This document shows positions 5,785 through 58,469 of a DNA stretch of 64,000 nucleotides, piece by piece. Each line of letters starts with the position of its first letter. The stretch's first letter is position 1. Origin of the DNA: an uncultured Alistipes sp. (GTDB lineage: Bacteria; Bacteroidota; Bacteroidia; Bacteroidales; Rikenellaceae). The position numbers and the translations under genes are program-made. The DNA is taken from assembly GCA_947573795.1 (NCBI GenBank), contig CANPHE010000007.1, positions 1-64,000 on the forward strand, given 5' to 3'. The notes beneath the pieces were generated by a model, which ran no database searches, was not told where the DNA came from, and worked only from the letters and a program-made list of their open reading frames with translations.

Positions 5785-5800
5785 GACGGAAGTTTTTGGC

Positions 5801-6679: not shown

Positions 6680-6996
6680 TTCTTTTCGGGAAACTATTGT
6701 TGTTCGCGGAGGGCGGACTTCTCTACGATTTATCTTCGGCGCCCGGATAAGAGGCGGGGCGCCGGAGGTTGAAAGAGAAGGGTGAAAGGATCGTTTTCGG
6801 CGGTTGCGGGGCGCAATTCCCGGTTGCGAAGGGTGGCGGGACCGGGTGCGTATGGCACGATCTGTGCCGGAATGCCGGGTGTAGTCCGGACATGCAGGTT
6901 CCCGAGAGGCACTTCCCCGCGGCCCTTAACGGCTGACCGCAAATTCAGGGACCTTCTCCGCGGCAAGCGCCCCGTTCGGAGCCGATAGTCCGGCGA

Positions 6997-7023
6997 CAGC
7001 CTCCTGCCCAAGGGGGCTGTTTT
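6997..7023 (+). terminator. Intrinsic terminator-like hairpin
   Basis: CAGCCTCCT-GCCCA-AGGGGGCTG followed by TTTT. Confidence 0.5.
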
Positions 7024-7053
7024 CGTGTCGGTCGGTGCGTCGGGGCGAAAGAA

Positions 7054-7746
7054 TCAATACATATATTTTTCCATCAACGGAACCAGCAAAGCCGTGGCCA
7101 GCCCCATGAGCGCCATCGCCAGGCCGCTCAGCGCCCCTTCCACGGCTCCGATCTCGATCGCCCGGGCCGTGCCGATGCCGTGGGCTGCGGCTCCGAGGGC
7201 GAATCCCCGCGCTTCGGGATCGCGTACGCCGCAGCGTGCGAGGATCCACTCTCCGAAGATGCTGCCGAAAATGCCGACGCAGAACACGACCACCGACGTG
7301 ACGCTGACCATGCCTCCCAGCGGTCCCGAAACCGAAACGGCGATCGGCACCGTGACGGATTTGGGGGCTATCGAGGTGAGGATCGTGCGGTCGACCCCGA
7401 AAGCCATGGCGATGTAGACGACGCTCGCCACTCCCGCGATACAGCCCGCGATCGTCGCGACGGCGACGGGCAGCAGACTGCCGCGCAGTCGTTCGACCTG
7501 TTCGTAGAGCAGATATCCGAGGGCCACGACCGACATGCCGAGCGCGAAGTCGAGCATCCGGGTCGCCTCCTTGTAACGTTCGTAGGGAATGTCGGCGCAG
7601 AGCAGAAAGACGATCAGGGATACGAAGGTCAGCAGCACGGGGTGCAGCAACGGCATGCGCATGCGGCGATAGAGCATGCCGCCCGCGCAGTAGAGTCCGA
7701 CGGTGAGCGTCAGCAGAAAGAGGTCCGAGCGGATGAAATCAACCAT
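7054..7746 (-). CDS. lrgB: LrgB family protein (CidB/LrgB)
   Basis: HPVLLTFV..., SIAPKSVTVPIA, GAAAHGIGTARA; adjacent to lrgA. Confidence 0.9.
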   Translation of the reverse strand: MVDFIRSDLFLLTLTVGLYCAGGMLYRRMRMPLLHPVLLTFVSLIVFLLCADIPYERYKEATRMLDFALGMSVVALGYLLYEQVERLRGSLLPVAVATIAGCIAGVASVVYIAMAFGVDRTILTSIAPKSVTVPIAVSVSGPLGGMVSVTSVVVFCVGIFGSIFGEWILARCGVRDPEARGFALGAAAHGIGTARAIEIGAVEGALSGLAMALMGLATALLVPLMEKYMY

Positions 7747-8110
7747 TGCGTCGAAGATTTTTGAGCCGCACCAGACGCGTGCGGCGGTTGAGGCTTTCGT
7801 AGGTCTTGCCTGCGACGACCAGTACGACGACGGTCGACAGCACGGCCGAGATGACGATCGCCCACAGGTTGCCGAGGATTACGTCGTAGGATTCCATCAA
7901 CCCTACGCCGTAGGGGACGAAAAAGAGCGCCATCGTGCCGAGCAGGAAACGTGCGGCGGGACGTACGGTCTCGGCCCGCAGGCGTCCCGAGCAGAGGGCT
8001 CCGAAGAGCAGGATCATGCCGATGATGTTTCCCGAGATATACCCGCCCGTGAGCGAGCTCAACAAATTGCCGATCAGCCAGAAAAGAAGAATGAAAAACA
8101 GTCCGGTCAT
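7739..8110 (-). CDS. lrgA: CidA/LrgA family protein
   Basis: MTGLFFILLFWLIGNLLSSLTGGYISGNIIGMILLF...FVPYGVGLMESYD; overlaps lrgB start. Confidence 0.87.
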   Translation of the reverse strand: MTGLFFILLFWLIGNLLSSLTGGYISGNIIGMILLFGALCSGRLRAETVRPAARFLLGTMALFFVPYGVGLMESYDVILGNLWAIVISAVLSTVVVLVVAGKTYESLNRRTRLVRLKNLRRNG

Positions 8111-8146
8111 TGCATTGCGTGCGTTTCGAAGCCGCAAAGATAATAC

Positions 8147-8299
8147 TTATCGTCTTTTCTTGTCCTTGCGCAGGGGACAATTCGTCTCCGCACAGGACGA
8201 ACAGCCGCCGTCCTTGCGAAAAACGCACCGCATGCGTCTTACGACCCAGATGCATGCGGCGACGGCGATCGCCGCTACGATATATTCCTGCCAGTCCAT
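8147..8299 (-). CDS. FeoB-associated Cys-rich membrane protein
   Basis: MDWQEYIVAAIAVAACIWVVRRMRCVFRKDGGCSSCAETNCPLRKDKKRR, directly downstream of feoB. Confidence 0.8.
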   Translation of the reverse strand: MDWQEYIVAAIAVAACIWVVRRMRCVFRKDGGCSSCAETNCPLRKDKKRR

Positions 8300-8346
8300 T
8301 TGTGTTTTTTCGAGACCGATCATTTTCCGTGCCGCGCGGATTGCTC

Positions 8347-10851
8347 TTAGAACAGCGCGACGAGGTGATAGACGATCCAGGCCAGCCCCCAGGCCAGCAG
8401 CGTGTTGTAAACGGCGGCTCCTACGGCCCATTTCCAGCCGGCTTCGGCTCCGATGGCCGAAATCGTGGCGATGCAGGGGAAGTAGAGCAGGATGAAGACC
8501 AGGAAGGCCGCGGCCGATGCGGTCGTGAAATCGCCGCTGGCGCGCAGTCGGGCCGGAAGCGACGCGTTGTCCGGAGTTTCGAGCAGTTCGATGGCCGGAG
8601 CGCCGTTTTCATCCGGATCGGCGACGTAGATCGTCGTCGAGGAGTCCGCACCGCCGATGATCGCAGCCTCCGGAACCGAAGATGCGGTCGCTTCTTCGGA
8701 GTAGAGTACGCCGATGGTGCTTACGACGATCTCTTTGGCCGGGACGCCCGAAAGAAGCGCCACGCCGGCTTTCCAATCGAGTCCCAGCGGCGAGAAAATC
8801 GGTTCGCACCCTTTGCCCAGGCGTCCGAGGTAGGAGTTTTCGTAATGCGTGACGCTGTGCGTGTCGGTTCGGTCGGTTCGGGGAAAATAGCTCAGCAGCC
8901 ACACGATGATCGATGCCACGAGGATCATGCCGCCCATTTTGCGCAGATATTGTGCGCATTTATCCCACATGTGCGACAGCGTGGTTTTCCACGTCGGCAG
9001 CCGGTAGGGCGGCAGTTCCATGACGAAGGGCGTTTCGTCGACCGGAAAGAGGAAGCGCCGCAGCAGCCGCGACGTAACCACGGCGACGACGACACCTAAT
9101 ATATAAAGCGCTGTCATAACGGCGCCGGCGTGGGCTGCGAAGAACGTTCCCGTGAGCAGGATGTAGATCGGCAGTCGGGCGCTGCACGACATGAAGGGGG
9201 TGATGAGGATGGTGATGAGCCGGCTGCTGCGGCTCTCGATGGTGCGGCAGGCCATGATCGCCGGGACGTTGCATCCGAAACCCATGATGAGCGGAATGAA
9301 CGATTTGCCGTGGAGCCCGACGCGGTGCATCACGCGGTCCATGATGAAGGCTGCGCGGGCCAGGTATCCCGAATCCTCCATGAAGGAGATGAACAGATAG
9401 AGGATCATGATGTTGGGCAGGAAGACGATGACGGCACCCACGCCGCCGATCACCCCGTCGGTCAGCAGATCGCGCAGGATGCCTTCGGGAACGAGCGTGC
9501 GCACGGCATCGCCGATCCATTCGACCAGCGCGGCGATCCACTCCTGCGGGTAGGCTCCCAGGTCGAACGTGCAGCGGAACATCAGCCACATCAGCACGAA
9601 GAAGATCGGAAAGCCCCACAGTTTGTGCGTCACGAAGGTGTCGATCACGGTCGTCGTCGTCACCGCTTCGCTCGTCCCGGGCGTGAAGGTCTCTTTCAGG
9701 GCGCCCTGGATGAATCCGTATTTCTGGTTGGCGAAGGCCGTTTCGACATCTTCGCCCAGGGCGTCGGCGATGCGGCGGGCTTCGCGGTCGCGCAGGGCGG
9801 ACCACTCTCCGTAGCGGGGACAGTCGTGCAGCAGGGCTTCGACCTGTCGGTCGCCTTCGAGCATCTTCATGGCGAAGTATCGGGGCGGGAAGGATTTGGG
9901 CAGCTCGTCGCGGTGGGCGCTCATGTCGGCGTTCAGCCGCCGAAGACCCTCTTCGATGCAGCTTCCCATGCCGATATGGATATGACGCACGCGCGCATCG
10001 CCGCCTTCGTAGACGCCGATCACGGTGTCGAGCAGCTCCTCGATGCCTTTGTTGTTGCGCGCCTCGACGGGAATCATCGGGATGCCCAGCATGGCGCCCA
10101 GACTTTCGTAGTCGAGCTTGGCGCCGCTGGCCTGCAACTCGTCGTACATGTTCAATGCCACGACCATGCGGGGATTGATGTCGATGAGTTCGGTGGTGAG
10201 GTAGAGGTTGCGTTCCAGATTCGATGCGACGACCGAGTTGATTACCACGTCGGGCGTTCGCTGCAACAGGTGTTCGCGTACGTAACGCTCCTCGGGCGTA
10301 TAGGCCGACAGGGCGTAGGTGCCCGGCAGATCGGTGATTTCGAAGCGGTAGCCGCGGTACGTGCGGTGTCCGACTTTGGCTCCGACCGTGACGCCGCTGT
10401 AATTGCCCACGTGTTCGTGACCGCCCGATATGGCATTGAAAAGCGATGTTTTGCCGCTGTTGGGATTGCCGATGAGCGCTACGGAGATCGTGCGGCTGTG
10501 GCGGCGGATCACTTCGTCGAGGGTGTTGCAGTCGCAAGCGTCGGCCGTCGTCGTCTCCGGGACCGGCGCAGTCTCGGTCGTCTCGGTCGTTGCGCGGCTT
10601 TTTTCGCCGAGTTCGCCGGCCGCTTCGTCGTCGGAAAGTACCACGACCATCTCCGCTTCGCTGCGGCGCAGCGAGATGTCGTATCCCATGATGTTGTATT
10701 CGATGGGGTCTTTCAGCGGGGCGTTCAGTTTTACGGTCACCCGCTGGCTGCGAACGAAGCCCATTTCCATAATCCTGCGGCGGAATCCTCCGTGCCCCAG
10801 TACTTTGAGTATCGTTGCCGATTCTCCGGTTTTCAGTTCGGACAGACGCAT
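8347..10851 (-). CDS. feoB: FeoA-FeoB fusion, ferrous iron transport protein
   Basis: N-terminal FeoA domain (MRLSELKTGESATILKVLGHGGFRRRIMEMGF) fused to FeoB GTPase (GNPNSGKTSLFNAISG, DLPGTYAL) and membrane domain. Confidence 0.95.
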   Translation of the reverse strand: MRLSELKTGESATILKVLGHGGFRRRIMEMGFVRSQRVTVKLNAPLKDPIEYNIMGYDISLRRSEAEMVVVLSDDEAAGELGEKSRATTETTETAPVPETTTADACDCNTLDEVIRRHSRTISVALIGNPNSGKTSLFNAISGGHEHVGNYSGVTVGAKVGHRTYRGYRFEITDLPGTYALSAYTPEERYVREHLLQRTPDVVINSVVASNLERNLYLTTELIDINPRMVVALNMYDELQASGAKLDYESLGAMLGIPMIPVEARNNKGIEELLDTVIGVYEGGDARVRHIHIGMGSCIEEGLRRLNADMSAHRDELPKSFPPRYFAMKMLEGDRQVEALLHDCPRYGEWSALRDREARRIADALGEDVETAFANQKYGFIQGALKETFTPGTSEAVTTTTVIDTFVTHKLWGFPIFFVLMWLMFRCTFDLGAYPQEWIAALVEWIGDAVRTLVPEGILRDLLTDGVIGGVGAVIVFLPNIMILYLFISFMEDSGYLARAAFIMDRVMHRVGLHGKSFIPLIMGFGCNVPAIMACRTIESRSSRLITILITPFMSCSARLPIYILLTGTFFAAHAGAVMTALYILGVVVAVVTSRLLRRFLFPVDETPFVMELPPYRLPTWKTTLSHMWDKCAQYLRKMGGMILVASIIVWLLSYFPRTDRTDTHSVTHYENSYLGRLGKGCEPIFSPLGLDWKAGVALLSGVPAKEIVVSTIGVLYSEEATASSVPEAAIIGGADSSTTIYVADPDENGAPAIELLETPDNASLPARLRASGDFTTASAAAFLVFILLYFPCIATISAIGAEAGWKWAVGAAVYNTLLAWGLAWIVYHLVALF

Positions 10852-10876
10852 AGTTGTTTTCGATTCTTTTCGGCCC

Positions 10877-10907
10877 CAAAGATACGTTTTTCATACCGGA
10901 TGCGCAA
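10877..10907 (-). promoter_or_regulatory. feoAB promoter
   Basis: Minus strand TTG-N20-TATCTTTG immediately upstream of feoAB. Confidence 0.7.
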
Positions 10908-11112
10908 TCCCTATTTGTAGGTAGGGACCGGTCGATCGTCCGAACGCAATCGCGACGTGGAACGGGGCGCCGTGCGGGGTACTTACGGGGATGCCGGGAA
11001 TAGCTTCTCGGGCGCTTTCGGCCCGGTTTTTGTTCGGAAGGTCGCAGCAGGGAATTGCGGGAGGCCGTTTGCCGGTCGGTCGCTCGGATGCGTTCCGAGA
11101 ACCGGTGCGTGC

Positions 11113-11592
11113 TCAGCTTCGGTAGATCAACGCCACGGCGCTTACCGAGACGCCCTCCTCGCGCCCTTCGAACCCGAGATGCTCTGTGGTCGTGGCTTTG
11201 ACCGACACCCGGTCATCGTCCACACCCATTGCTCCGGCCATCGCAGCGCGCATGGCATCGATATGCGGTCTCAGTTTGGGCCGTTGCATGCGGATCGTGC
11301 AGTCCACATTCCCGATTTCATAGCCTTTTTCGCGCAGCAGTGCCGCCGTGCGTCGCAGCAGTATCTTCGAGTCTATCCCGGAATACTCGTCCGAGGTGTC
11401 GGGGAAATGGAGCCCGATATCCCCCAATGCCGCGGCACCCAACAGGGCGTCGCATACGGCATGGATCGCCACGTCGCCGTCCGAATGGGCGATGCAGCCT
11501 TTCGAGTGGGGAAGCGCTACGCCTCCCAAAACCAGCGGCAGCCCGTCGGCGAGGGCGTGCACGTCGTATCCGTGTCCGATTCTGAAATCCAT
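11113..11592 (-). CDS. ispF: 2-C-methyl-D-erythritol 2,4-cyclodiphosphate synthase
   Basis: MDFRIGHGYDVHALADG...HSDGDVAIHAVCDALLGAAALGDIGLHFPD. Confidence 0.96.
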   Translation of the reverse strand: MDFRIGHGYDVHALADGLPLVLGGVALPHSKGCIAHSDGDVAIHAVCDALLGAAALGDIGLHFPDTSDEYSGIDSKILLRRTAALLREKGYEIGNVDCTIRMQRPKLRPHIDAMRAAMAGAMGVDDDRVSVKATTTEHLGFEGREEGVSVSAVALIYRS

Positions 11593-11609
11593 GGTGCGGA
11601 GTTTTTCGG

Positions 11610-11690
11610 CAAAGATACGAATAAGCCTCGGAAAAAGGCAAGCTCGTTTGCCTTTTTCCGAGGCGCAGTATCTTCGGTGCGGCCGAAACC
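11610..11690 (-). repeat. Dispersed promoter repeat, hairpin-bearing variant, driving ispF
   Basis: Minus strand ...CGCCTCGGAAAAAGGCAA-ACGAGC-TTGCCTTTTTCCGAGGCTTATTCGTATCTTTG; 16-bp perfect stem 11626-11641/11648-11663. Confidence 0.75.
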
Positions 11691-11730
11691 CGAAAGGTCC
11701 GTTTGCCGGAAGAAAGACCCGACGTCAAAC

Positions 11731-11765
11731 AAAAAGCGCATCTCCGTTGCTGAGATGCGCTTTTT
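11731..11765 (-). terminator. Hairpin terminator downstream of the OmpH-family gene
   Basis: AAAAAGCGCATCTC-N7-GAGATGCGCTTTTT. Confidence 0.85.
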
Positions 11766-11784
11766 CGGTCGAGCCTGTCGAACC

Positions 11785-12360
11785 CTATTTTTTCTTGTCG
11801 GCGGCGTAGAGCTCGTTTACCTTGGCCAGTACGGCGGAAGTGATGTTGAGCGTCGTGTCGGCATCGATGAGCGCCGTGGCGTTGACGATCAGTTTGTACT
11901 TCTTGTCGGCGTTGATCTCCTGCACGGCGCGCTGCAACAAGTCCTGTGCACGGTTGGTGAATACGTAGTTCTCCTCGTCGAGGGTCTGAGCCTCTTTCTG
12001 CGCCGAGTTCTGATAGGCGGCGATGCGCTTCTCGATGGCCTGCTGCTGGTTCTGGGCATCGATGGTCGTAATCAGACCTTTCTGATACTTCTCCTGGAGG
12101 GCGGCGGCTTCGGCCTGGAGATTCTTCTCCTTCTGGGCCCAGCTCTTCTGCGCCTTCTGGGTCTTCTCCTGGAGGGCGGCGCCTTCGTTCAGGTAAAGGT
12201 CGCACTGAGCCAGGACGGCTTCCACCTGTACATAGGCCATGTCATTGGTCGTCACTTCGTTGGCGATTTCGACCGCGGCCTCTGCGGGCTGTGCGGGTTT
12301 CGAGTCGCAGGCCGTCAGGGCGAGTGCTGCCGCCAGGGCCGTAAAAATCGTTTTTTTCAT
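11785..12360 (-). CDS. OmpH/Skp-family periplasmic chaperone, probable lipoprotein
   Basis: MKKTIFTALAAALALTACDSK lipobox; coiled-coil; ...NYVFTNRAQDLLQRAVQEIN. Confidence 0.8.
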   Translation of the reverse strand: MKKTIFTALAAALALTACDSKPAQPAEAAVEIANEVTTNDMAYVQVEAVLAQCDLYLNEGAALQEKTQKAQKSWAQKEKNLQAEAAALQEKYQKGLITTIDAQNQQQAIEKRIAAYQNSAQKEAQTLDEENYVFTNRAQDLLQRAVQEINADKKYKLIVNATALIDADTTLNITSAVLAKVNELYAADKKK

Positions 12361-37508: not shown

Positions 37509-37714
37509 CGGTTTTCGTCGTTTCGTTTCGGGCGCCGCGGCGCTCTTTAATCCGTCAAAGATACACAATCGGGCAATCATATCCAACTTTATGCCGATAT
37601 TCCTGCGGATATTGGCTCGTGCGACCCGCTTTCGGATGCGGCCGGGTCTTTGCCGTTTGCTTTTGTAAAAGCTTATTCCTATTTTTGCCGGACCTAACCC
37701 CGAATACCTCGCGA

Positions 37715-38434
37715 ATGAAAAAAACGTTGCTCCTTTCGTTCTTCGTACTTCTGCTGCAACCCGTTATCTCGCAGACGCTCGTCTGGGAGGATTTGCGCGA
37801 AACGGCCCTGCCCCGGCCGAAGACTTTCGACCACGAACTGGGCATCCGCTACGGTGCCCAAATCTCTCTGGGCAGTACGGACGGGCCCGATTTGCAGGCA
37901 TTCTGCATCGACTATGCCTGGTACGGGCCCTCGAATATCGGCGTACGTACGGGTTTCAATACGTTCCTCGACGCGGATATCGAGAACTACTACTCCGTGC
38001 CCGTGCAGTTCACGTGGCGGACGAAAAGCTACCGCGCGAAAGAATTCCGGTCGAGCGACCGCAGCCATTACTACAACCACCGATATTACCGCGACGAAGA
38101 ATATACGCCTCGCAGTTTTTTCTGGGACTTGATCTGTTCGATCCTCCCCTCGGCCTTGGAGGCGCACGCCGGATTCACGCCCGGTATGATGGGTGGTCCG
38201 CGTACCCTGCCGGAGGGCTACGATCCGGAATGGGGATGGCAACCCTATGTCGTCCGCCATCGTTTCGCCTGCACGTTCGACGCGGGATTCCGGCTCATCA
38301 TCCCCATTTGGCGCTTCAACCTTTTCGGAGACTTCACCTACCACTGTTATCTGACCGATAATTTCCGGGTCGGGGACTACCGCCCGAAACGTTCTTTCGT
38401 CGGACTGAGCGGAGGAATCTCGTTCCGCTTCTGA
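37715..38434 (+). CDS. Putative outer-membrane beta-barrel protein
   Basis: Signal peptide MKKTLLLSFFVLLLQPVISQ; alternating strands, terminal SFRF; TATTTTTG at 37680. Confidence 0.55.
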   Translation: MKKTLLLSFFVLLLQPVISQTLVWEDLRETALPRPKTFDHELGIRYGAQISLGSTDGPDLQAFCIDYAWYGPSNIGVRTGFNTFLDADIENYYSVPVQFTWRTKSYRAKEFRSSDRSHYYNHRYYRDEEYTPRSFFWDLICSILPSALEAHAGFTPGMMGGPRTLPEGYDPEWGWQPYVVRHRFACTFDAGFRLIIPIWRFNLFGDFTYHCYLTDNFRVGDYRPKRSFVGLSGGISFRF

Positions 38435-38487
38435 CCGACGGCCCCTCTGGGACGGCGATATTCGGCGACGCCCGAATGCGGAGGGCG

Positions 38488-39078
38488 TCAAAGCAGCCCG
38501 GCTTCGTAGTAGACGACGATCTGTTCGATGATGCGATCCTCGCCGTCGCGGTCGTATTCCGATTTGAGATTCTGCCCGAAGACCCGCGAGACGCCCTGCC
38601 AGAATCCGGCGACGAAACCTCCGCGGAACTCCTTGAGCACTTCATAGGCCGTGTATTCGGTTTCGCGGTCGATGAGTTTGAGCAATACCTTGCCCTGCGT
38701 GCGGGTCATATGCTTCAGAATGGGGGTATACTCCTCCTTGATCTGGTCGTAGATACCTTTGATATATTCTTTCTGCGCCTTTTTGGTCGGCAGGCGGCAC
38801 AATTCGTCCTCCATATCCTGCATCTTGGCCTTCGCGATCTTGGCGATGGGGTAGACCTTCTTCACCGCATCGACCAACCGGCGGTAACGCCGCAGGTCGA
38901 CCGGACGGCTGAATACGTAGACCGGAAGAATGTGGACCAGCGGGATGGAATCGCCGCGCTCCACGGTCCACTCCTGGTGCCAGAAACCGCGCCCGCGCTG
39001 TGCCTGCGCCTCGAAAACCGAGACGAGGATTGCCGCGATGAGTACGGACGTCCGGAGGATGAATCGTAAACGGATCAT
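38488..39078 (-). CDS. DUF4294 domain-containing protein
   Basis: HILPVYVFSRPVDLRRYRRLVDAVKKVYPIAKIAKAKMQDME...KLIDRETEYTAYEVLKEFRGGFVAGFWQGVSRVFGQNLKSEYD. Confidence 0.8.
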   Translation of the reverse strand: MIRLRFILRTSVLIAAILVSVFEAQAQRGRGFWHQEWTVERGDSIPLVHILPVYVFSRPVDLRRYRRLVDAVKKVYPIAKIAKAKMQDMEDELCRLPTKKAQKEYIKGIYDQIKEEYTPILKHMTRTQGKVLLKLIDRETEYTAYEVLKEFRGGFVAGFWQGVSRVFGQNLKSEYDRDGEDRIIEQIVVYYEAGLL

Positions 39079-39081
39079 GCA

Positions 39082-39136
39082 CAAAGATACGAATAAGCGA
39101 GAGCAATGGCAAATTTATTTGGCAATTGCCGAGCGT
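39082..39136 (-). repeat. Dispersed promoter repeat (single unit)
   Basis: Minus strand CGCTCGGCAATTGCCAAATAAATTTGCCATTGCTCTCGCTTATTCGTATCTTTG. Confidence 0.85.
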
Positions 39137-39197
39137 TAACCGAACGCGAGCCGCGCATCGGCATCCGGATAACGACGATTTTTAGGCGTCCGCCCCC

Positions 39198-39659
39198 ATG
39201 AAAGGAACGGAATTTGCCGGCTCGGGATATCGAAACATAAATCCGCTTGCCATGATCGAGAACGTAACTGTGTCGATGAACCGCGACTCGCGATTCCGAC
39301 CCGAATGCACGCAGAAGTGCGACGAAATGAATCCTCATGAACTGCTGCTCTACGCCGCAGCCGAATGCACCGCTTACACACTGCTCGCGATGCTCGAAAG
39401 CCTGCACATCGAGCCACAACGCATCGAAATCGGTTATTCGGGCGATATCGGTGATGAAAAAAAGACACCGCGGGGTATTTTCCGTTCGTTCCACGTCGTC
39501 TACAACATCGCGTGCGATACCGAGGCCGACCAAACTCGGATAAGCCGGGCCGTCCGGCTCACGCACGAAAAATACGGTCCCATGACGCAGATGCTGCGCC
39601 GCATCGCCCCTGTATCGCAAGAGATCGCCATCGTCACCACTCAGCCCGAAAAAGCTTAG
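39198..39659 (+). CDS. OsmC family protein
   Basis: MNPHELLLYAAAECTAYTLLAMLESLHIEPQRIEIGYSG... alternative start 39252. Confidence 0.75.
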   Translation: MKGTEFAGSGYRNINPLAMIENVTVSMNRDSRFRPECTQKCDEMNPHELLLYAAAECTAYTLLAMLESLHIEPQRIEIGYSGDIGDEKKTPRGIFRSFHVVYNIACDTEADQTRISRAVRLTHEKYGPMTQMLRRIAPVSQEIAIVTTQPEKA

Positions 39660-39761
39660 AGCGACCGAACCCCAATTTCCAGAAAAAGAGTCCCGATGAC
39701 GGAAAATCCGCCTCGGGACTCTCCGTTATGCCTCCGAAACTCGTAAGAAACGCCCTATTTC

Positions 39762-39870
39762 TTGGTGTTTCCGGGAGAAATACATACATTTGTGTAGTTA
39801 ATAAAGCCCATTGCCGGAAAAAAGATTCGTTTTCAAGCGCCTCTTGAAAATATCTTTTTTCGGCAATGCT
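39762..39870 (+). ncRNA. Candidate small hairpin RNA
   Basis: TTG-N20-TACATTTG promoter then CATTGCCGGAAAAAAGATTCGTTTTCAAG-CGCCT-CTTGAAAATATCTTTTTTCGGCAATG hairpin; no ORF. Confidence 0.4.
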
Positions 39871-49041: not shown

Positions 49042-49122
49042 AACCGAATCGGCGCGATTTCGAAATCGTAGATAATTTCCGATTTTTTTTTGCAAAGATA
49101 TAAAAAAATTCTACCTTTGTGC

Positions 49123-49224
49123 CTGGGTGAGTCTTATACGACCAGCTCCTGCAGAATCCCCCAGGCGAGGAATCGAGCAAGGGTATGCGGTCGTAGCGGT
49201 GCGATATAATCAGCTCACCCTTTT
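49123..49224 (+). ncRNA. ffs: Signal recognition particle small RNA (4.5S-like)
   Basis: Apical SRP motif ATCCCCCAGGCGAGGAATCGAGCAAGGGTA; closing stem GGGTGAG/CTCACCC; TACCTTTG -7 element at 49112. Confidence 0.85.
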
Positions 49225-49326: not shown

Positions 49327-49335
49327 CCCCCCCCC
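49327..49335. repeat. C9 homopolymer in the leader region of the DUF5689/nuclease operon
   Basis: AATCTGCCCCCCCCCGCCTCAGGCAG; tract sits in a CTGCC...GGCAG stem. Confidence 0.9.
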
Positions 49336-49495
49336 GCCTCAGGCAGTAAGGACTTAAATTCGGTTTAGTGTGTATGCAGTTGTCTTTTTTATTTCCTCTG
49401 CGGCACTCGGCCGATTCGTGCAGACAGATTCCTGGCATTCGATTTGGAACGCGTATGGAAAACTCCGATAACGGATCAACCTAAATAACGCTTCT

Positions 49496-52279
49496 ATGAA
49501 AAAAACGAATCTTTGGAACCGGTTTTCCACCGCAGTGTTGGCTTTCGCCGCTCTGGCGCTCGGAGCCTGCGTGGACGATGATGAAGACAAGGGCATGCCC
49601 CGCCTGGAGGTGTCGCCCGAAACGCTCGTATTTGCCGCGGACGGTACGCCGCAGGGACCCGGAGCCTTCACGGTGCGTAGCAATCGCCCCTGGACGCTCG
49701 AAATCGCCGAAGGCGGCGATTGGGTGACCCCCTCGGTAAAGCAGGGCGACGGCAACGGCAAAGTCGAATTCACGGTCCCGGCCAGCAACACGGGACGTAT
49801 CGCCAAACTGACATTCTCGTTGCGAAATGCTTACGGAGCCTACCTCACGCGCGAGGTGACGATCGAACAGGGCCAGGCGCCGCGTGCCGGGGAGGTCAGC
49901 GCACTGGTGGCCTATATCAAAAATACCTGGCCGTCGCTCGAAAGCGGGACCGAGGAGCTCAACTATGCGAAAAGCTCGATTCCGGCCGTGATTCTGGCCA
50001 ATAACGAGGGCGGCAACAACTTCGGCAAACTGTATGTGGGCGATAATATCACGCTGCCCAATTCGGCGATCATTCTTTACAGCACTTCGGAATTTACGCG
50101 CGAAAAAAGTGCGAATTACCCGGTCGGACGTAAAGTCATGCTCGACCTGTCGAATGCGAAGTACGCTCCCTACGGCAATCTGCGCGAGCTGAAAGACGTC
50201 GTAGTGACGCTGACCGAAGACGATCCCGTCGAGGTGGTCGTGCCGACGCTCTCCGCCGCGACGCTCAATTCGGGTGAATACCAGGGACAGTACGTGTGCG
50301 TCGCCAATCTGACGCCCCAGGCCGATTTCGTCGGCCAGCCGTGGGCCGAGGCGGCCAAACGCGTGGTGCGCTTCGAGGCTTCGGACGGCGCTACCGTGCA
50401 GAGTTATATGGCTACGGCGACCGATGCGCCCGCATTCGCCGGGATCACCATCGCCGACCGGACGGGTTCGCTTTACGGAACGGCCGAGCAGAACTATCGC
50501 AATATCCAGCTGATCCCGACGCGTGCGGAGGATGTCGCGGCATTCGTCGTGACGGGACCGTCGCTCGCGGTGAATCCGGCGGACGAGCTGATCCTCGCCT
50601 CCGAAAGCGGTGCTACGGCGCAGCTGGCCGTTACGGCCAATGTCGCCTGGCGTACGACCGTTACCGGCAGCGGTTTTACGATCGATCCTGCTACGGGCGA
50701 GAACGACGCTGCGATCGAGGTGACTGCGACGGCAGCCAATGAGACCTCCGCGTCCGTCGAGCTGGGAACCGTGACCTTCGAGGCCGACGGTATCGAGTCG
50801 GTGACGGTACGTATTCTTCAGGCCGCCCAGCCGAGCGCCCAGCCGAAAACGGTCGCCGAGTTCATGACCTTCGTGCGCGGATTGGCTCCCGAAGCCAATG
50901 CCGAAGCATCGTTGGCCGAATGGGCCGGACAGCGTGTCGAGGGATACATCGCAGCCAACAATGCGTACGGCAATCTCTATCAGATGATCTCCGTGGTCGA
51001 TAATACGGGTGCTCCCGGGTCGGGCGTGCTGTTGTCGGATGCCGCTTTCGAGACGGTGGCCGACTATCCGGTCGGTGCGCACGTGACCTGGACGGTCGGC
51101 AGCACGAGTACGGTCTACAACTCCTACGGACTCTACAAGATCAATCGCGTGGCGGTCGAAGTGGACAGTGCGGCGCCCGTCGCCATGAAGGTGCCGGCCA
51201 TTACGCTCGCGCAATTCCTTTCGAACGATTATATGGGTATGAACGTCACCGTTACCGGGTTGCGTTTCAAGGGCGAGGCCGGTGAAACGTGGTACGGCGG
51301 CACGGCGAACTATGCGACGCGTCTGTTCGCCGATGGAAATTCGGAACTTGCGGTACGTGTCTATAAGACCGTGCCCTGGGGCGGCGATATCATCTCTCCG
51401 CTTGCTGCGAATGCTTCGCTGACGGGTGTGGCCGAGATTTACGACGGCACGCCGCAGCTCTATCCCCAGTCGTCGGAGGATATCGCCGCTTTCCGGCTCG
51501 ACGCCTCCGTGCCTCTGATTACCGCCGTGGTTCCGACCTCGTTGTCGTGGGGAGCCGAGGAGACGACGGGCAAGCAGATAGCCGTTACGGTGGTCAATCT
51601 CGGGGCGCATACCCTGACGATCGATCCGGCCGCGATCGCGCCTTTCCGCGCTACGGTCGAGGGTACGACGATCACGGTGACACCCTCCGCAGCCAATACG
51701 AGTGCCGAGGATATCGTACGTACGCTCACGATTTCGGTGGCGGGCGGTAACAGCCGCGAGGTGACGCTCACGCAGTTCGCTGCGGGTTCGTCGGGCGATA
51801 CGAAGGGTGTCTATACGTCGATGTCGCAGTTCATTCCGACAGCCATCAGCACGACGGACCGTTACTATCCCTCCGCTTCGACGATCGACGGCAAGCCCGC
51901 TACGGGTTTCAAGCTCGGCACGAGCAGCCTTGCGGGTGTATTCACTTCGGCGCCGCTCGGTGCGGGCGTAGCCTCCGACCTGAAACTTTCGTTCTATGCG
52001 GTGGCATGGACCGGAAAGAGTGCTACGGTCTACGTGCGGGTGAACAACGGCGGAGCGGTCGAAGGTACGGCCCAGTGCGAGGTGCGAGGCAGCGCGGGCG
52101 CTACGGGTTCGGGCAATGATTTCACCTTCACGGATATCGGCGATTCCGACTATTATACGTTCCGCCTTACGGGTTTGACGCCGCAGTCTACCGTCACGAT
52201 CTCTACCTCTCCCGACTTTACGGCCGCTTCCGACCGTAATACGGGCCGGGCTATTCTTCTGGGCGTGCAACTCTACTGA
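49496..52279 (+). CDS. DUF5689-containing surface lipoprotein with BACON-like domains
   Basis: Lipobox AALALGACVDDD; FTVRSNRPWTLEIAEGGDWVTPS; two DUF5689-like repeats (VGDNITLPNSAIILYSTSEF..., GYIAANNAYGNLYQMISVVDNTGAPGSGVLLS...). Confidence 0.75.
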   Translation: MKKTNLWNRFSTAVLAFAALALGACVDDDEDKGMPRLEVSPETLVFAADGTPQGPGAFTVRSNRPWTLEIAEGGDWVTPSVKQGDGNGKVEFTVPASNTGRIAKLTFSLRNAYGAYLTREVTIEQGQAPRAGEVSALVAYIKNTWPSLESGTEELNYAKSSIPAVILANNEGGNNFGKLYVGDNITLPNSAIILYSTSEFTREKSANYPVGRKVMLDLSNAKYAPYGNLRELKDVVVTLTEDDPVEVVVPTLSAATLNSGEYQGQYVCVANLTPQADFVGQPWAEAAKRVVRFEASDGATVQSYMATATDAPAFAGITIADRTGSLYGTAEQNYRNIQLIPTRAEDVAAFVVTGPSLAVNPADELILASESGATAQLAVTANVAWRTTVTGSGFTIDPATGENDAAIEVTATAANETSASVELGTVTFEADGIESVTVRILQAAQPSAQPKTVAEFMTFVRGLAPEANAEASLAEWAGQRVEGYIAANNAYGNLYQMISVVDNTGAPGSGVLLSDAAFETVADYPVGAHVTWTVGSTSTVYNSYGLYKINRVAVEVDSAAPVAMKVPAITLAQFLSNDYMGMNVTVTGLRFKGEAGETWYGGTANYATRLFADGNSELAVRVYKTVPWGGDIISPLAANASLTGVAEIYDGTPQLYPQSSEDIAAFRLDASVPLITAVVPTSLSWGAEETTGKQIAVTVVNLGAHTLTIDPAAIAPFRATVEGTTITVTPSAANTSAEDIVRTLTISVAGGNSREVTLTQFAAGSSGDTKGVYTSMSQFIPTAISTTDRYYPSASTIDGKPATGFKLGTSSLAGVFTSAPLGAGVASDLKLSFYAVAWTGKSATVYVRVNNGGAVEGTAQCEVRGSAGATGSGNDFTFTDIGDSDYYTFRLTGLTPQSTVTISTSPDFTAASDRNTGRAILLGVQLY

Positions 52280-52281
52280 TT

Positions 52282-53511
52282 ATGTCGAATTTTCGTTTTT
52301 CTTCGATGCTTGTCGCGGCTTCGATCCTCCTTTGGGGATCGGCCGCGACTTCGTGTAGCGACGATTCCGACGAGGATCGGTCGCCTTATTCCGTGTCGTG
52401 GGACCCCGAGAAGACCGTGCATCCCGATCAGGAGGGAGCTGCCGTGCTGATCGTTACGGGGCGCACGGGAACCTCGTGGACGGCCGAGATCGTCTCGGGT
52501 GCCGAGTGGATATCGTTCGACCGGACCGCTCCCGGTTCGCAGACGATCAAGAGCGGAACGACGGGAACGTCGCTCGCGCAGCGCAACCAGTATGTCTATT
52601 ATTGGCCGAACGATACCCATGCCGAGCGGCATGCCGTGATCCGGTTTCTCTTTTCGGGGCAGGAGCCCGTGGACTTGGAGCTGACGCAGTACAGTACCTC
52701 GTCCGACGACGATGTGTACCAGTCGGGGCAATATCTGGCCTGGCCCGAAATCCCGGCGCAGGTGTTGAATGTCGATTATCTCTACGTCACGCACTTCGCC
52801 GATATGCGTTCGGGCGGGAGCGGTGCGACGCTGCGGGCCCGCAACTATACGATGTGCTTCGACCGTACGAAGTTCGCCGCCTGGTGGGTGGCCTATCCGC
52901 TGCACGCCTCCTATACGGGGTCGGGCCGGGTAGAGACCTGGGCCTACGATCCCAAGATCGCGGGCGAGTGGCAGGCCGATCTGTCGCGCAGCTATGTTTC
53001 GCCGACCTACGACCGGGGACACCAGATACCCAATGCCGACCGCAGCGGAAATACCGTCATGCAGGAGCAGACGTTCTATTTCTCGAACATGACGCCGCAG
53101 AATGCCGAGCTGAACCAACGCCCGTGGGCGGCCCTCGAGAAGGCTGCGCGCGACAACTGGATGTGCTCCGATACGCTCTATGTCGTGACCGGTGCCTGGT
53201 GGAGCCCGTCGGATCGTCTGACGACGCCCGACCGCAACGGCAAGCAGTGTCCCGTACCGACGAGCTATTTCAAGGTCTTCCTGCGCACGGTGCGGGGCAA
53301 TATCCGCCAGCAGGGCGACCGCTTGGGCGACTATCCGGCCTCGGACCTGAAGTCGATCGGATTCTGGGTCGACAACCGCAGCGGTCAGGGCACGGCGCGC
53401 GACTGGGTGCGCAGTGTCGCGGAGATCGAGCGCCTGACGGGCTTCGAATTCTTCCCGACGGTGGATGCCGCGGTCAAGACGCAACGGGATGCCGTCTCGT
53501 GGGGGCTGTAA
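52282..53511 (+). CDS. Secreted DNA/RNA non-specific endonuclease with N-terminal BACON-like domain
   Basis: Lipobox SAATSCSDD; YDRGHQIPNADRSGN motif, FYFSNMTPQNAELNQRPW. Confidence 0.9.
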   Translation: MSNFRFSSMLVAASILLWGSAATSCSDDSDEDRSPYSVSWDPEKTVHPDQEGAAVLIVTGRTGTSWTAEIVSGAEWISFDRTAPGSQTIKSGTTGTSLAQRNQYVYYWPNDTHAERHAVIRFLFSGQEPVDLELTQYSTSSDDDVYQSGQYLAWPEIPAQVLNVDYLYVTHFADMRSGGSGATLRARNYTMCFDRTKFAAWWVAYPLHASYTGSGRVETWAYDPKIAGEWQADLSRSYVSPTYDRGHQIPNADRSGNTVMQEQTFYFSNMTPQNAELNQRPWAALEKAARDNWMCSDTLYVVTGAWWSPSDRLTTPDRNGKQCPVPTSYFKVFLRTVRGNIRQQGDRLGDYPASDLKSIGFWVDNRSGQGTARDWVRSVAEIERLTGFEFFPTVDAAVKTQRDAVSWGL

Positions 53512-53526
53512 ATTATGGCTCTTGAG

Positions 53527-53535
53527 CCCCCCCCC
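53527..53535. repeat. C9 homopolymer between nuclease and EEP genes
   Basis: TTGAGCCCCCCCCCGCGGAGGCTCG; tract lies in a GAGCC...GGCTC stem. Confidence 0.9.
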
Positions 53536-53596
53536 GCGGAGGCTCGAAACGCAACGAGGATCGCATTTTGCAGAGCAATATTAACAATACGATAGG

Positions 53597-54628
53597 ATGA
53601 AACGATGGTTTTTCGCGCTGTGCTGCGTGGTGTCGATGGCGGCCGGACTGGCACAGAAGCCCTACAAGGTGGCTTTCTACAACCTGGAAAATTTCTTCGA
53701 CACGATCGACGATCCGGACGTGCTGGACGAGGAGTTCCTGCCCTGTTCGCCCCGCGGGTGGAATACGGCCAAATATACGCGCAAGCTGGCCAATGTCGAA
53801 CGCGTGTTGTTCGATATCGCGGCTACGGACCGCATATTTCCGGCAGTCATCGGACTCTCGGAGGTCGAGAACCGCTCGGTGCTCGAAGATATCGTCGCGT
53901 CGCCCCGTCTGGCTGCGGCCGATTATCGCATCGTGCACTACGATTCGCCCGACGCCCGCGGGGTCGACGTGGCGTTCCTCTACCGTCCGGCGGTCTTCCA
54001 CTTGCAGGGGAGCCGTGCCGTGCGGACCGTCGTTCCGCAGTTGCCGAACTTCCGCACGCGCGATATCCTGACGATGTGGGGCACGATCGATTCGCTGCCG
54101 TTCTATTTCATGGTGGTGCACTGGCCTTCGCGACTGGGCGGTCGCGAAGCCTCGGAGTTCAAGCGCGTGGCCGTCGGCGAGCAGATGCGGCGTCTGGCCG
54201 ATTCGGTGCTTCGGGCCGATCCGGCGACGCGCGTCGTGGCGATGGGCGACTTCAACGACGATCCTTCGGACCGCAGCCTGACCGAAGGCCTCGGAGCCCG
54301 GGGCCGGGTGCGGGACCTTGCTCCCGGGGACTTCTTCAACCCCTTCGCCGCGATGCACCGGGCCGGGCTGGGAACGCTGGCCTACGGCGATCGGTGGAAC
54401 CTGTTCGACAACATCGTCGTCTCGGCGAACATGGTCGAAGACGCGGACGGCGGCATGCGGCTGGTGCAGGCCCCCGGATCGAAATACTACGGTGCGATCT
54501 TCCGCCGTCCCTATATGGTGCAGCAGGAGGGACAGTTCAAGGGATATCCCCTGCGGACGTATGTCGGCAATAATTTCCAGGGCGGGTTCAGCGACCACTT
54601 CCCGGTCTATATCTATTTCGCGCGTTGA
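53597..54628 (+). CDS. Endonuclease/exonuclease/phosphatase family protein (secreted)
   Basis: Signal peptide; VAFYNLENFFDTIDDP, GLSEVENRSVLEDI, VVHWPSRLGG, MGDFNDDPSDRS, SDHFPVYIYF. Confidence 0.92.
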   Translation: MKRWFFALCCVVSMAAGLAQKPYKVAFYNLENFFDTIDDPDVLDEEFLPCSPRGWNTAKYTRKLANVERVLFDIAATDRIFPAVIGLSEVENRSVLEDIVASPRLAAADYRIVHYDSPDARGVDVAFLYRPAVFHLQGSRAVRTVVPQLPNFRTRDILTMWGTIDSLPFYFMVVHWPSRLGGREASEFKRVAVGEQMRRLADSVLRADPATRVVAMGDFNDDPSDRSLTEGLGARGRVRDLAPGDFFNPFAAMHRAGLGTLAYGDRWNLFDNIVVSANMVEDADGGMRLVQAPGSKYYGAIFRRPYMVQQEGQFKGYPLRTYVGNNFQGGFSDHFPVYIYFAR

Positions 54629-54659
54629 GGCGGACGTTTCCCAAAATCATCCATAATCC

Positions 54660-57416
54660 ATGAAAAGAATTTACCTTATTCTCTTGTTGGCGCTCCTCGC
54701 ACCTCCTCTGTTCGCCCAAAGCGGCGGCATCGAGGGCAGGGTCGTGTCGCGCGGGGGCCGCGTGCCGCTCGCGGGTGTGCGCGTCGAGTTGCAGCCGCTC
54801 GGGGCCTCCGTCGTTTCGGACGACGAGGGCCGCTTCCTGCTCGAGCATATTCCTGCGGGCGATTATGCGCTGCGCTTCGAGACCGCGGAGTTCGAGCCCC
54901 TGACCGTCGCCGTGCGCGTCGGCGCGACGCTGCGCGATATCCGCCAGGTCGTGCTGGTTCCCGACATGCCGCGCCAGACGCTCGACGATGCCGTCTTCGC
55001 GGAATTCGATACCGAGACGGCGGACGACGCCCAGTCGTTGCCCACTTCGCTCGCTGCATCGAAAGACGTCTTCGACAATATCGCGTCGTATAAATTCAGC
55101 GAGATGCGGTTCAACCTGCGCGGTTACGATTCGCAGTACCAGGATGTCTACATGAACGGTATTCCGCTCAACGATGCCGTGACGGGTTATACCCCCTGGT
55201 CGTTGTGGAGCGGTCTGAACGATGCGGTCCGCAATCAGGAGATCACGCGCGGACTCGGCGTCTCGGAAGTCGGACTGGGCGGCATCGGCGGCGTGACGAA
55301 TATCCTCACCGCTCCGTCGCAGATGCGCAAGGGGCTGCGGGTGAGCCTGGCCAACGGCAATGCGATGTACCGGTTTCGGGCGATGGCTACCTATGCTTCG
55401 GGATATCAGGACAACGGCTGGTCCTACGTCTTTTCGCTCTCGACGCGTCAGGGCGGCAACTCCTATGTCGATGGCGTATACTACAACGCCTACGGCTATT
55501 TCGGCGCCGTGGAGAAGCGTTTCGCCGACCGTCATCGCCTGACGCTGACGCTGCTCGGCGCCCCGACCGAGCGCGGCGCGCAGCAGGCTGCCACCGAGGA
55601 GGTCTACGACCTGGTGGGCAACCATTATTACAACCCCAACTGGGGCTGGCAGGACGGCAAGAAGCGAAACGCCCGTGTGCGCGACAGCCACGAACCGATC
55701 GTCGTGCTGAACTATACGTTCGACATTACGGAACGTTGGCGTCTGTCGCTGGCCACGTCGCTGCGTTTCGGACAGAACGGCTATTCGGCGCTGACGTGGC
55801 AGAACGGCCCCGATCCGCGTCCGGACTATTACCGCTACCTGCCGAGTTATTTCGCGGCGGACGGCGATCGCCGGGGCGCTGCGTGGCAGGCGGTCTACTG
55901 GCAAGCCAACTACCTCGATATCCGACACTTCGACTGGGACGGCATGTACGAGACCAACGGGATGCAGCACGATCCGATCGATGCTGCGACGTACGGCCCC
56001 GGGCGTCGTTCGAATTACATGGTCGAGGAGCGCCATACGGATCAGCTCGACTGGAATTTCGTAGCTTCGTTCGCGCATCGTTTCCGCAACGATTCGCGGC
56101 TCAACGGTGGTGTCGGGCTGCGCCGCAACCGGACCGCCTACTACTCCGAGGTCAAGGACCTGCTGGGCGGCGACTATTGGGCCGATATCGACAAATTCGC
56201 CGAGCGCGATTTCGGGTCGGACGTCACGGCCTACCAGAACAACCTGGATTACTACGAGAAGTACGGACATGCGCATGCCGCCCGGACGGGGGATAAGATC
56301 AGCTACAACTACTATGCGCATCTGATTCGTGCACGGGGATGGCTCTCCTATGCGTTCAACGTCGGCGGTCTGGCTGTCGCGCTGGGCGCCGAAGCGGGTT
56401 ATGCTTCTCTGTGGCGCGAGGGTCTGTGGCGCAAAGGTCTCTTCGCCGACAATTCGAAAGGCGATTCCAAGACACTGCGCTACTTCACCTATCGGGGGAA
56501 GATCAATCTCGCCTATCGATTCTCGGGGGCTCATGCCATCGAGGCCAATGCCGTGTGGATGCAGGAGGCGCCTCGGTTCCAGGCGGCGTTCGTTTCGCCC
56601 CGCACACGCAACACCACGACGCCGGGTATCGATGCCGAGCGGGTGCTGGGCGTCGATCTCTCCTACGATTTGCGCATCGGCGATGCGAAATTCCGCGTTT
56701 CGGGGTATTATACGCGTATTTACGACCAGTCGAAGGTCATTTCCTATTACGACGACGTGGCGGCGACCTATACGAACTTCGTCATGACGGGCGTGGACAA
56801 ACTCCATTTCGGTCTGGAAGCGGCGCTTTCGGTGCCCCTCTACCGGGGGCTGACGTTGAACGGGGCCGTAAGCTGGGGACAGTATACCTACGATTCGAAC
56901 CCCGAGTATCTCCAGACGCAGGACAACAGCGGCGACATCATCTCCGCCGGGCGTGTCTACTGGAAGGACCTGCGGGTGGAGAGTACGCCGCAGACGGCCG
57001 TCAACGTCGGGTTGTCCTACCGCACGCGCAACAATATTTTCCTCTCGGCCGATTTCAACTATTACAACAACATGTACCTTTCGATGAGCCCCGTTTACCG
57101 CACGGACGCCGTGATTACGAGTGGCATGGCTGCCGAGGATGTCGCACGGCTGCGGCGTCAGGAGAAATTCGCTGCGGCGCATACGCTCAACGCCAGCGTG
57201 GGCAAGAACTGGTATATCCGTCGTCTCTATACGTTGGGTTTCAGCCTCGAAGTGAAGAACATCCTGAATGACCAGGACATCCGTACGGGCGGTTACGAAC
57301 AGACGCGTCTGCGGAAAAACAACGAGACGACCGTTACCTCGTACGAACCGTTCGACGCCAAATATTTCTACCTGTTCGGTACGACCTATTATCTGAATCT
57401 TTATTTCCGTTTCTGA
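54660..57416 (+). CDS. TonB-dependent receptor with N-terminal carboxypeptidase-regulatory-like domain
   Basis: IEGRVVSRGGRVPLAGVRVELQPLG...; plug FNLRGYDSQYQDVYMNGIPLNDAVTG; C-terminal YYLNLYFRF. Confidence 0.92.
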   Translation: MKRIYLILLLALLAPPLFAQSGGIEGRVVSRGGRVPLAGVRVELQPLGASVVSDDEGRFLLEHIPAGDYALRFETAEFEPLTVAVRVGATLRDIRQVVLVPDMPRQTLDDAVFAEFDTETADDAQSLPTSLAASKDVFDNIASYKFSEMRFNLRGYDSQYQDVYMNGIPLNDAVTGYTPWSLWSGLNDAVRNQEITRGLGVSEVGLGGIGGVTNILTAPSQMRKGLRVSLANGNAMYRFRAMATYASGYQDNGWSYVFSLSTRQGGNSYVDGVYYNAYGYFGAVEKRFADRHRLTLTLLGAPTERGAQQAATEEVYDLVGNHYYNPNWGWQDGKKRNARVRDSHEPIVVLNYTFDITERWRLSLATSLRFGQNGYSALTWQNGPDPRPDYYRYLPSYFAADGDRRGAAWQAVYWQANYLDIRHFDWDGMYETNGMQHDPIDAATYGPGRRSNYMVEERHTDQLDWNFVASFAHRFRNDSRLNGGVGLRRNRTAYYSEVKDLLGGDYWADIDKFAERDFGSDVTAYQNNLDYYEKYGHAHAARTGDKISYNYYAHLIRARGWLSYAFNVGGLAVALGAEAGYASLWREGLWRKGLFADNSKGDSKTLRYFTYRGKINLAYRFSGAHAIEANAVWMQEAPRFQAAFVSPRTRNTTTPGIDAERVLGVDLSYDLRIGDAKFRVSGYYTRIYDQSKVISYYDDVAATYTNFVMTGVDKLHFGLEAALSVPLYRGLTLNGAVSWGQYTYDSNPEYLQTQDNSGDIISAGRVYWKDLRVESTPQTAVNVGLSYRTRNNIFLSADFNYYNNMYLSMSPVYRTDAVITSGMAAEDVARLRRQEKFAAAHTLNASVGKNWYIRRLYTLGFSLEVKNILNDQDIRTGGYEQTRLRKNNETTVTSYEPFDAKYFYLFGTTYYLNLYFRF

Positions 57417-57434
57417 CGGCGAAGCGGAAAAAAC

Positions 57435-58469
57435 ATGCGCATTATGAAAAGAATCTTTCAATGCTTTGCGGTCGCCGTGCTGCTGCTCTCGGCGGGATGC
57501 TATAACGATTACGACGCTCCGGGACCGGGACGGGTCTATACCGACGCCGATTTCGAGGCCGAGGGGCTGACCTATATTCCCATTCGCGAGGTCAAGGCCC
57601 GTTTCCGGGCGGCCAATCCGGGGATGAACGACGGTTCGGTCGCCTCGTGGCCGATCGAAGAACCGCTCTATACGCGCGGCAAGGTCGTGTCGAGCGACCG
57701 GGCCGGGAATATCTACAAATCGCTCTACATCTACGATGCGGGGAGCGGCTCGGCCATCGAGCTGAAGCTCACGTCGGGCAACTATTTGTTCCATCCCGTC
57801 GGACAGATCGTCTACGTGAAGTTGCAGGGGCTCGTCGTCGGGAACTACCGGGGGATGCTGAGTATCGGTTCGGCATCGGGTTCGGCGGCCTACTCGAACG
57901 ACAATATCGAGAGCTCGGTCGTGCGTGCGGAGCATATTTTCCGGGGCGAGCAGCAGGCGATGCTGCCTTCGGACACGCTCGTCGTCACGCCGCAGAATTA
58001 TAGGACGGTCCTTTCGGACGACGATCTGGGACGGCTGGTCCGTTTCGAAGGGTTGTACAGCCGTTTCGGAAAGGCGCAGTGGGGCTATCAAAACCTTTTT
58101 CCCAACTATTTCGCCAATTCGACCTCGTACGATGCGACCTCTCCCGGATGGGAGGATATCGACGAGTGGGCTACCTGGGCCGCTTTCCGGCGCGAACCTT
58201 TCCCGGGCGGCGAAGGGTTCGTGGATACCTATTTTTACGGCTCGGCGTGGTTCACCTACGGCGATCTTTCGGGCAGCTACGGGCGATACACCCCCGGAAA
58301 CTATGTCGTCCGAACGAGCGGTTACAGCTCGTTCCGCGACGAACGCATTCCGACCGACGGCACGCAGGTCGACCTTACGGCGATCTATACCAAATTCACC
58401 AACGGTTCCGGCGGCAATGTCTCCTATCAGCTGACATTGTGCAGCGCAAGAGACGTCGAGGTGAAATGA
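57435..58469 (+). CDS. DUF5689 domain-containing lipoprotein
   Basis: Lipobox LLLSAGCYND; GKVVSSDRAGNIYKSLYIYDAGSGSAIELKL...FHPVGQIVYVKLQGLVVGNYRGMLSIG. Confidence 0.83.
   Translation: MRIMKRIFQCFAVAVLLLSAGCYNDYDAPGPGRVYTDADFEAEGLTYIPIREVKARFRAANPGMNDGSVASWPIEEPLYTRGKVVSSDRAGNIYKSLYIYDAGSGSAIELKLTSGNYLFHPVGQIVYVKLQGLVVGNYRGMLSIGSASGSAAYSNDNIESSVVRAEHIFRGEQQAMLPSDTLVVTPQNYRTVLSDDDLGRLVRFEGLYSRFGKAQWGYQNLFPNYFANSTSYDATSPGWEDIDEWATWAAFRREPFPGGEGFVDTYFYGSAWFTYGDLSGSYGRYTPGNYVVRTSGYSSFRDERIPTDGTQVDLTAIYTKFTNGSGGNVSYQLTLCSARDVEVK

Follow-up and report, generated by a model that had tools for sequence, protein, structure and literature searches.

By what route do competent Bacteroidota bring extracellular DNA through their outer membrane? 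A five-gene operon of an uncultured Alistipes sp. raises this question in concrete form: do its two nucleases, its barrel and its two lipoproteins import nucleic acid as food or as genetic material? The operon (genes A to E) lies in a 64,000-nucleotide stretch of contig CANPHE010000007.1 (assembly GCA_947573795.1, positions 1 to 64,000, forward strand), referred to here as the window. Our analysis favors, with moderate confidence, the reading that A-E form the module through which transformation in Bacteroidota takes up DNA at the outer membrane, in this case with extra nucleases. The genes are as follows.

Gene A, 49496..52279, + strand: 927 aa, two DUF5689 regions and BACON.
Gene B, 52282..53511, + strand: 409 aa, Endonuclease_NS lipoprotein.
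Gene C, 53597..54628, + strand: 343 aa, EEP-family protein (Exo_endo_phos_3).
Gene D, 54660..57416, + strand: 918 aa, TonB-dependent-receptor-type barrel.
Gene E, 57435..58469, + strand: 344 aa, DUF5689 lipoprotein.

These five consecutive + strand open reading frames are tightly packed across 49496-58469, with intergenic gaps of 2 (A-B), 85 (B-C), 31 (C-D) and 18 bp (D-E). Position 49327, from which the initial annotation had counted the locus, falls in the leader, the first ATG of A being at 49496. Domains were called with Pfam and NCBIfam, and signal peptides were judged by eye from the sequence. The reading frames and Pfam matches confirm the annotated run of same-strand genes of the named families; the BACON assignment holds for A (BACON_2), and B has no BACON match.

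The evidence that carries the transformation reading comes from Riemerella anatipestifer, in which transposon and markerless mutants established that RA0C_RS04915 and RS04920 are essential for natural transformation (PMC8459023). RA0C_RS04915 is an outer-membrane protein with a CarboxypepD_reg domain, and the adjacent RS04920 combines DUF5689 with DUF5017; markerless deletion of either gene lowered transformation from 5.4e-5 to below detection (PMC8459023). ComEC, DprA, ComF, RecA, a periplasmic helix-hairpin-helix (HhH) protein and a DUF1343 protein were likewise essential, homologues of RS04915 were reported solely from Flavobacteriaceae, the barrel was named only as a speculative channel, and the nuclease converting double-stranded to single-stranded DNA was listed as unidentified (PMC8459023).

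As a Riemerella-like reference we used G246, a single-contig genome of 2,164,087 bp from the Chryseobacterium family. Its gene order is ComEC, a 145 aa protein, a 542 aa protein, an EEP protein, D and E, so that the number of genes from ComEC to E equals that for locus tags RS04895 to RS04920; DprA lies 54 kb further on, where RS05130 is expected, and the HhH and DUF1343 genes are near the expected places of RS02645 and RS09020. The NCBIfam 'M949_1556' lipoprotein family, named after a Riemerella gene, includes the G246 E as a full member, and this protein carries a choice-of-anchor-J domain. Its domains match the published ones (D with CarboxypepD_reg, E with DUF5689 and DUF5017), and the identity between its D and that of a Chryseobacterium is 65%, compared with 65.9% in PMC8459023. 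The gene count beside ComEC, the domains and the identity level led us to take G246 as R. anatipestifer. Downstream of its D-E pair (L153 15491-19900) we also noted, by eye only, type II-C CRISPR-Cas-like genes encoding 112, 299, 264 and 801 aa.

Window D aligns with the G246 D at 28% identity over 962 columns (E 2e-115), window C with the G246 C at 34% (3e-73), and window E with the G246 E at 31% over 81 residues (7e-7). A D family profile scored 1048 bits against the G246 D and 171 bits against the next barrel there; in the host genome (G000) it scored 1111 bits for the window copy, 1107 for a copy on contig C4, 375 for a barrel on contig C16 and less than 43 for the rest. A search with window D returned full-length relatives across class Bacteroidia, with a sharp gap between D-type barrels (about 1e-98 or better) and the remaining matches (1e-52 and weaker). 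Four more distant barrel families (f2, f7, f8 and f10) were rejected as D orthologues on the sharp drop in profile score, and those of their loci that we inspected had neither an EEP gene nor a stand-alone E-type lipoprotein beside the barrel. In a maximum likelihood tree (quick method, SH-aLRT support), the D proteins of Bacteroidales and Flavobacteriales form one family that divides as the species do: window D falls among Bacteroidales-type families and the Riemerella D on the Flavobacteriales side, as expected from vertical descent with duplications in the family of the host. Five lines of evidence (the domains, the number of genes counted from ComEC, the level of identity, the protein tree and the profile gaps) together point to D as the orthologue of RA0C_RS04915, E as the counterpart or orthologue of RS04920, and C as the orthologue of the EEP gene beside that pair, RS04910.

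The gene neighborhood is conserved along with the proteins. The EEP, D and E genes occur in the same arrangement in Chryseobacterium, Epilithonimonas, Kaistella, Flavobacterium, Polaribacter and others, D is present in nearly all of 150 Chryseobacterium-family genomes, and a DUF5689 lipoprotein gene directly follows D in most loci, the window included. Of 29 genomes, 19 have an EEP gene (PF19580) no more than 1 kb away from D, compared with about 0.04 expected at random placement; five families are represented, and the genomes are related, so no formal probability is attached to this count. Outside the host's family the EEP gene is usually divergent beside D. In close relatives the full A-B-C-D-E order recurs, with A homologues leading the operon (L193-L197, L199, L201 and L202), which bears out the co-occurrence of the five families in other genomes that the initial annotation had proposed as a check. 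This recurrence and the C-D adjacency place the A-E set far beyond chance. The DUF5017/choice-of-anchor-J part appears, by comparison of loci, to be variable rather than defining, since a separate DUF5017 protein is reported in Flavobacterium columnare (PMC8459023) and another stands between D and E in a member of Flavobacteriia (L097). Proximity of ComEC to D was rejected as a general rule: it holds in G246 and two other Riemerella-like genomes (G271, G260) and not in most others.

Two nucleases accompany the barrel. B matches Endonuclease_NS (8e-41), contains the DRGH motif of this DNA/RNA non-specific NucA/EndA family, and keeps its place between A and C in Alistipes-type loci; its lipoprotein-type signal (Cys25-SDDSDED) is acidic after the cysteine, a feature that in Bacteroidota usually denotes surface display, and B is predicted to be a surface enzyme. 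C matches Exo_endo_phos_3 (3e-110), an EEP-family nuclease/phosphodiesterase, and has a type I signal peptide, so that its location is probably periplasmic. Residues N29, E31, E89, N92, H175, D218, N220, D333 and H334 of C are kept in at least 90% of 112 homologues and, judged from the alignment, include the EEP active-site residues. The likeness to ExeM-type nucleases that had been suggested for the locus extends to its parts, OB-fold and EEP; C itself was rejected as a member, since it scores 25.9 bits against the ExeM/NucH family NF033681, far under the 300-bit cut-off.

These enzymes are also the basis of the explanation offered initially, in which B and C digest extracellular DNA or RNA and D imports the oligonucleotides or nucleotides for carbon, nitrogen or phosphate, with no gene transfer. 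Two nucleases, one of them predicted at the surface, beside an importer of the TonB-dependent transporter (TBDT) type are in keeping with such scavenging. So are cousin loci in two other families, which combine a protein sorted by the type IX secretion system (T9SS) and containing an LTD domain, a related TBDT and a DUF5689-nuclease fusion: in one, DUF5689 is fused to Endonuclease I (L241 6110-12170), in the other to a PLD/NucT-type nuclease (L242 6198-12321), and both fusions are T9SS-exported. The LTD protein resembles the ExeM N-terminus, and the fusions tie DUF5689 independently to nucleases and TBDTs. Duplicated copies in the host would further fit nutritional expansion. A second complete A-E operon lies on contig C4 at 2333-12000 (L039), its D being 59% identical to window D and its B and A more diverged than its C and D. 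A third D-family barrel of 806 aa, lacking a CarboxypepD match, lies on contig C16 at about 37712-39811 (L040 7710-10130); it has no DUF5689 or nuclease neighbors, and in other members of the family its relatives are accompanied by two DUF5689 genes and located close to Obg-like and Era-like genes. Elsewhere in the host's family the barrel is shorter and one or two DUF5689 genes come after it, with an Endonuclease_NS gene a few genes further along in several cases; the Endonuclease_NS protein appears membrane-anchored in L205 and L210, where its gene lies between Obg-like and Era-like genes.

However, deletion of the D or E orthologue abolishes transformation (PMC8459023), which leaves scavenging unsupported as the main function, and no nucleoside or phosphate transporter, phosphatase or polysaccharide utilization locus (PUL) regulator was found in the operon or directly beside it. 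No SusD match was found among the A-E proteins with Pfam or NCBIfam, and none is adjacent; with no PUL regulator at the operon either, the label 'PUL-like' is a misnomer. The transformation reading rests on experiments at the level of orthologues and the scavenging reading on the presence of nucleases. We regard scavenging without gene transfer as unlikely, although the broader proposal of a nucleic-acid import locus is upheld.

The predicted architecture of the other three proteins is compatible with the transformation reading. D has a type I signal and matches CarboxypepD_reg (8e-10) and, weakly, Plug (4e-4). Its structural model displays a plug and a barrel of about 22 strands (pLDDT 82), and the top PDB matches obtained with Foldseek are TBDTs (E 3e-31), so that the model indicates a TBDT-type barrel; searching PDB sequences with D and E returned no informative match. 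A has DUF5689 in two stretches (1.4e-30), BACON_2 (1.1e-5) and, in its C-terminal part at about 800-866, a segment weakly similar to a family of T9SS-dependent surface DNases, and its signal (Cys25-VDDDED) suggests a putative surface lipoprotein. E matches DUF5689 (3e-33), has a lipoprotein-type signal (Cys22-YNDYD) and, in a domain search, lacks a choice-of-anchor-J/DUF5017 part. The model of E is confident for a core of residues 31-200, its N-terminal two thirds only. PDB matches to it are led by LysRS and AspRS, with CcmE, CST/POT1-TPP1 and a HIN domain lower, all of which are OB-folds. The OB-fold that had been proposed for DUF5689 is in line with these leading matches; at E-values of 3e-3 or weaker, it is plausible but not proven. 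DUF5689 by itself was rejected as a marker of this DNA-uptake system, the host genome having 11 matches, several in other settings. An adjacent DUF5689 gene pair lies on contig C43 (L217 12744-14298), about 10 kb from the HhH gene on that contig, with no D-type barrel near.

The lipoproteins also prompt an explanation in which the locus has some other surface function (polysaccharide, antigen or adhesion) and the Riemerella transformation phenotype is indirect. An E-family gene of another Riemerella strain, M949_1556, was first reported for antigenicity and pathogenicity and is cited as related to lipopolysaccharide, and in their mature forms both E and A are acidic proteins (pI 4.9 and 4.5, respectively). 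Yet transformation is lost completely in each of the two single markerless mutants, D and E have a conserved nuclease in their company, the predicted lipoprotein fold resembles an OB-fold, and the cousin loci contain nuclease fusions; we consider this explanation very improbable.

The rest of a competence pathway is present in the host, which has ComEC, DprA, a multi-HhH membrane-anchored (ComEA-like) protein and a DUF1343 protein. In a relative (G037, L223 5710-8945) the HhH gene overlaps the comEC start by a few bases, suggesting translational coupling and supporting a ComEA role for the HhH protein. The host ComEC, although only 480 aa, was rejected as broken: a normal stop lies directly before the next gene and the channel domain is matched in full. 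Experiments in P. gingivalis, another member of Bacteroidales, showed both ComEA and ComEC to be essential, and the authors describe the entry of DNA into the periplasm as unclear (PMC11532111). The secretin PilQ (PF00263) was found in none of 11 genomes (the host, at 90% completeness, the Riemerella-like G246 and others), with controls positive in 6 of 14, which makes a PilQ route unlikely. Mutation of either tonBA or tonBB reduces transformation in Riemerella; the tonBA mutant has no iron defect, and iron does not account for its effect (PMC8383284). These phenotypes fit a TonB-driven D but do not prove it.

The ComEC proteins of the Riemerella-like genome and 10 others consist of OB and channel parts only, with no PF00753 (beta-lactamase domain). 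That domain degrades the non-translocating strand, and where it is missing or inactive another nuclease can act: S. pneumoniae uses EndA where the domain is inactive, and H. pylori must use something else (PMC12455585). Since Bacteroidota ComEC lacks the strand-degrading domain, C or B could supply this step, and C, together with B in Alistipes-type loci, would be a natural candidate for the strand nuclease.

We propose the following model, in which four elements are inferred: that DUF5689 captures DNA, which way and in what form DNA passes through D, what B and C do, and that the host is competent. The surface lipoproteins E and A, with their putative OB-fold DUF5689 regions, would capture extracellular double-stranded DNA, which B, as a surface Endonuclease_NS enzyme, may nick or trim. 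D, energized by TonB, would move the DNA through the outer membrane, and in the periplasm the HhH (ComEA-like) protein would bind it. Because the ComEC channel has no nuclease domain of its own, C, and perhaps B, would degrade the non-transported strand, and ComEC, DprA and RecA would finish uptake. A generalization of this model can be offered only tentatively, and we would not yet expect it to hold: Bacteroidota may have a phylum-specific, pilus-free transformation system whose OB-fold lipoproteins capture double-stranded DNA and whose TonB-driven 22-strand barrel carries it across the outer membrane, with C as a dedicated periplasmic EEP nuclease in place of the missing ComEC domain and, in gut Alistipes, an EndA-type surface nuclease in addition. 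A single importer serving both nutrition and transformation, with the nucleases setting the amounts of DNA that are eaten and kept, would join the orthologue transformation phenotype (PMC8459023) with the surface nuclease added in the Rikenellaceae form; we judge it to be rather improbable.

Several observations weigh against assigning A-E to transformation. The acidity of E and A does not favor simple DNA binding, and the E family has the reported link to antigenicity and pathogenicity; these points help to hold our confidence at its moderate level. A surface nuclease could destroy transforming DNA. With two A-E copies and a third D-family barrel in the host, the copy in the window may have acquired a different function, and one copy could have shifted to nutrition. 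ComEC was found in all 49 genomes examined, so that its presence is weak evidence in this class and its co-occurrence with D was rejected as an informative test (49/49 positive); moreover, ComEC proteins that lack the nuclease domain also occur in genomes that have no D. The host genome is a draft, 90% complete, and the species of G246 is one that we infer.

The flanks of the operon are unrelated to A-E: YceG lies upstream and a convergent sulfatase-family membrane protein downstream. One RNA gene lies just upstream.

Small SRP RNA (signal recognition particle; Bacteroidales, RF04183), 49118-49224, + strand: 107 bits.

A promoter-like TTTG-N-TACCTTTG lies ahead of this RNA at 49089-49119. Further on, in the leader of gene A, a run of about 10 C (49327-49336) might permit slipped-strand variation in expression.

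The barrel/DUF5689 kind is known from Riemerella; the five-gene, two-nuclease form, its spread into Bacteroidales and the co-conservation of the EEP gene are not described in the literature searched, a search that excluded preprints, included few subscription papers and found no follow-up paper on the Riemerella pair. The locus extends the pair from Flavobacteriaceae to gut Bacteroidales and offers a concrete candidate for the nuclease converting double-stranded to single-stranded DNA that PMC8459023 left unidentified. If the proposed role is correct, uptake of free DNA may be within the reach of abundant gut commensals, a matter of consequence for how genes are exchanged in the gut and for making these organisms genetically tractable.

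Comparison with known systems places the locus as follows. The type IV pilus/PilQ route of V. cholerae and Neisseria would likewise bring double-stranded DNA across the outer membrane to ComEA/ComEC, whereas the host has a TBDT-type barrel and lipoproteins and no secretin was found. A SusC/SusD PUL resembles the operon in its TBDT-type barrel, which has CarboxypepD_reg at the N-terminus, and in the surface lipoprotein encoded downstream, but the window operon lacks SusD, carbohydrate enzymes and a PUL regulator. ExeM/NucH has OB-fold and EEP domains, the latter weakly matched by C (about 26 bits), whereas the window has separate proteins beside a barrel and no LTD. Pneumococcal EndA, which we take to share the Pfam family of B (Endonuclease_NS), also operates where ComEC has no active nuclease domain; in contrast, B is a lipoprotein in Alistipes-type loci, and only the L205 and L210 homologues look membrane-anchored. 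The Riemerella pair differs in that its EEP gene is divergent rather than within the operon, RS04920 has a choice-of-anchor-J/DUF5017 part absent from window E, neither A nor B was seen there, and ComEC is linked there and unlinked in the host; the host also has two operon copies. It is alike in having ComEC, DprA, HhH and DUF1343 proteins in the genome and, at the locus itself, a predicted orthologous CarboxypepD_reg barrel and DUF5689 lipoprotein encoded adjacently on the same strand with an EEP gene beside them.

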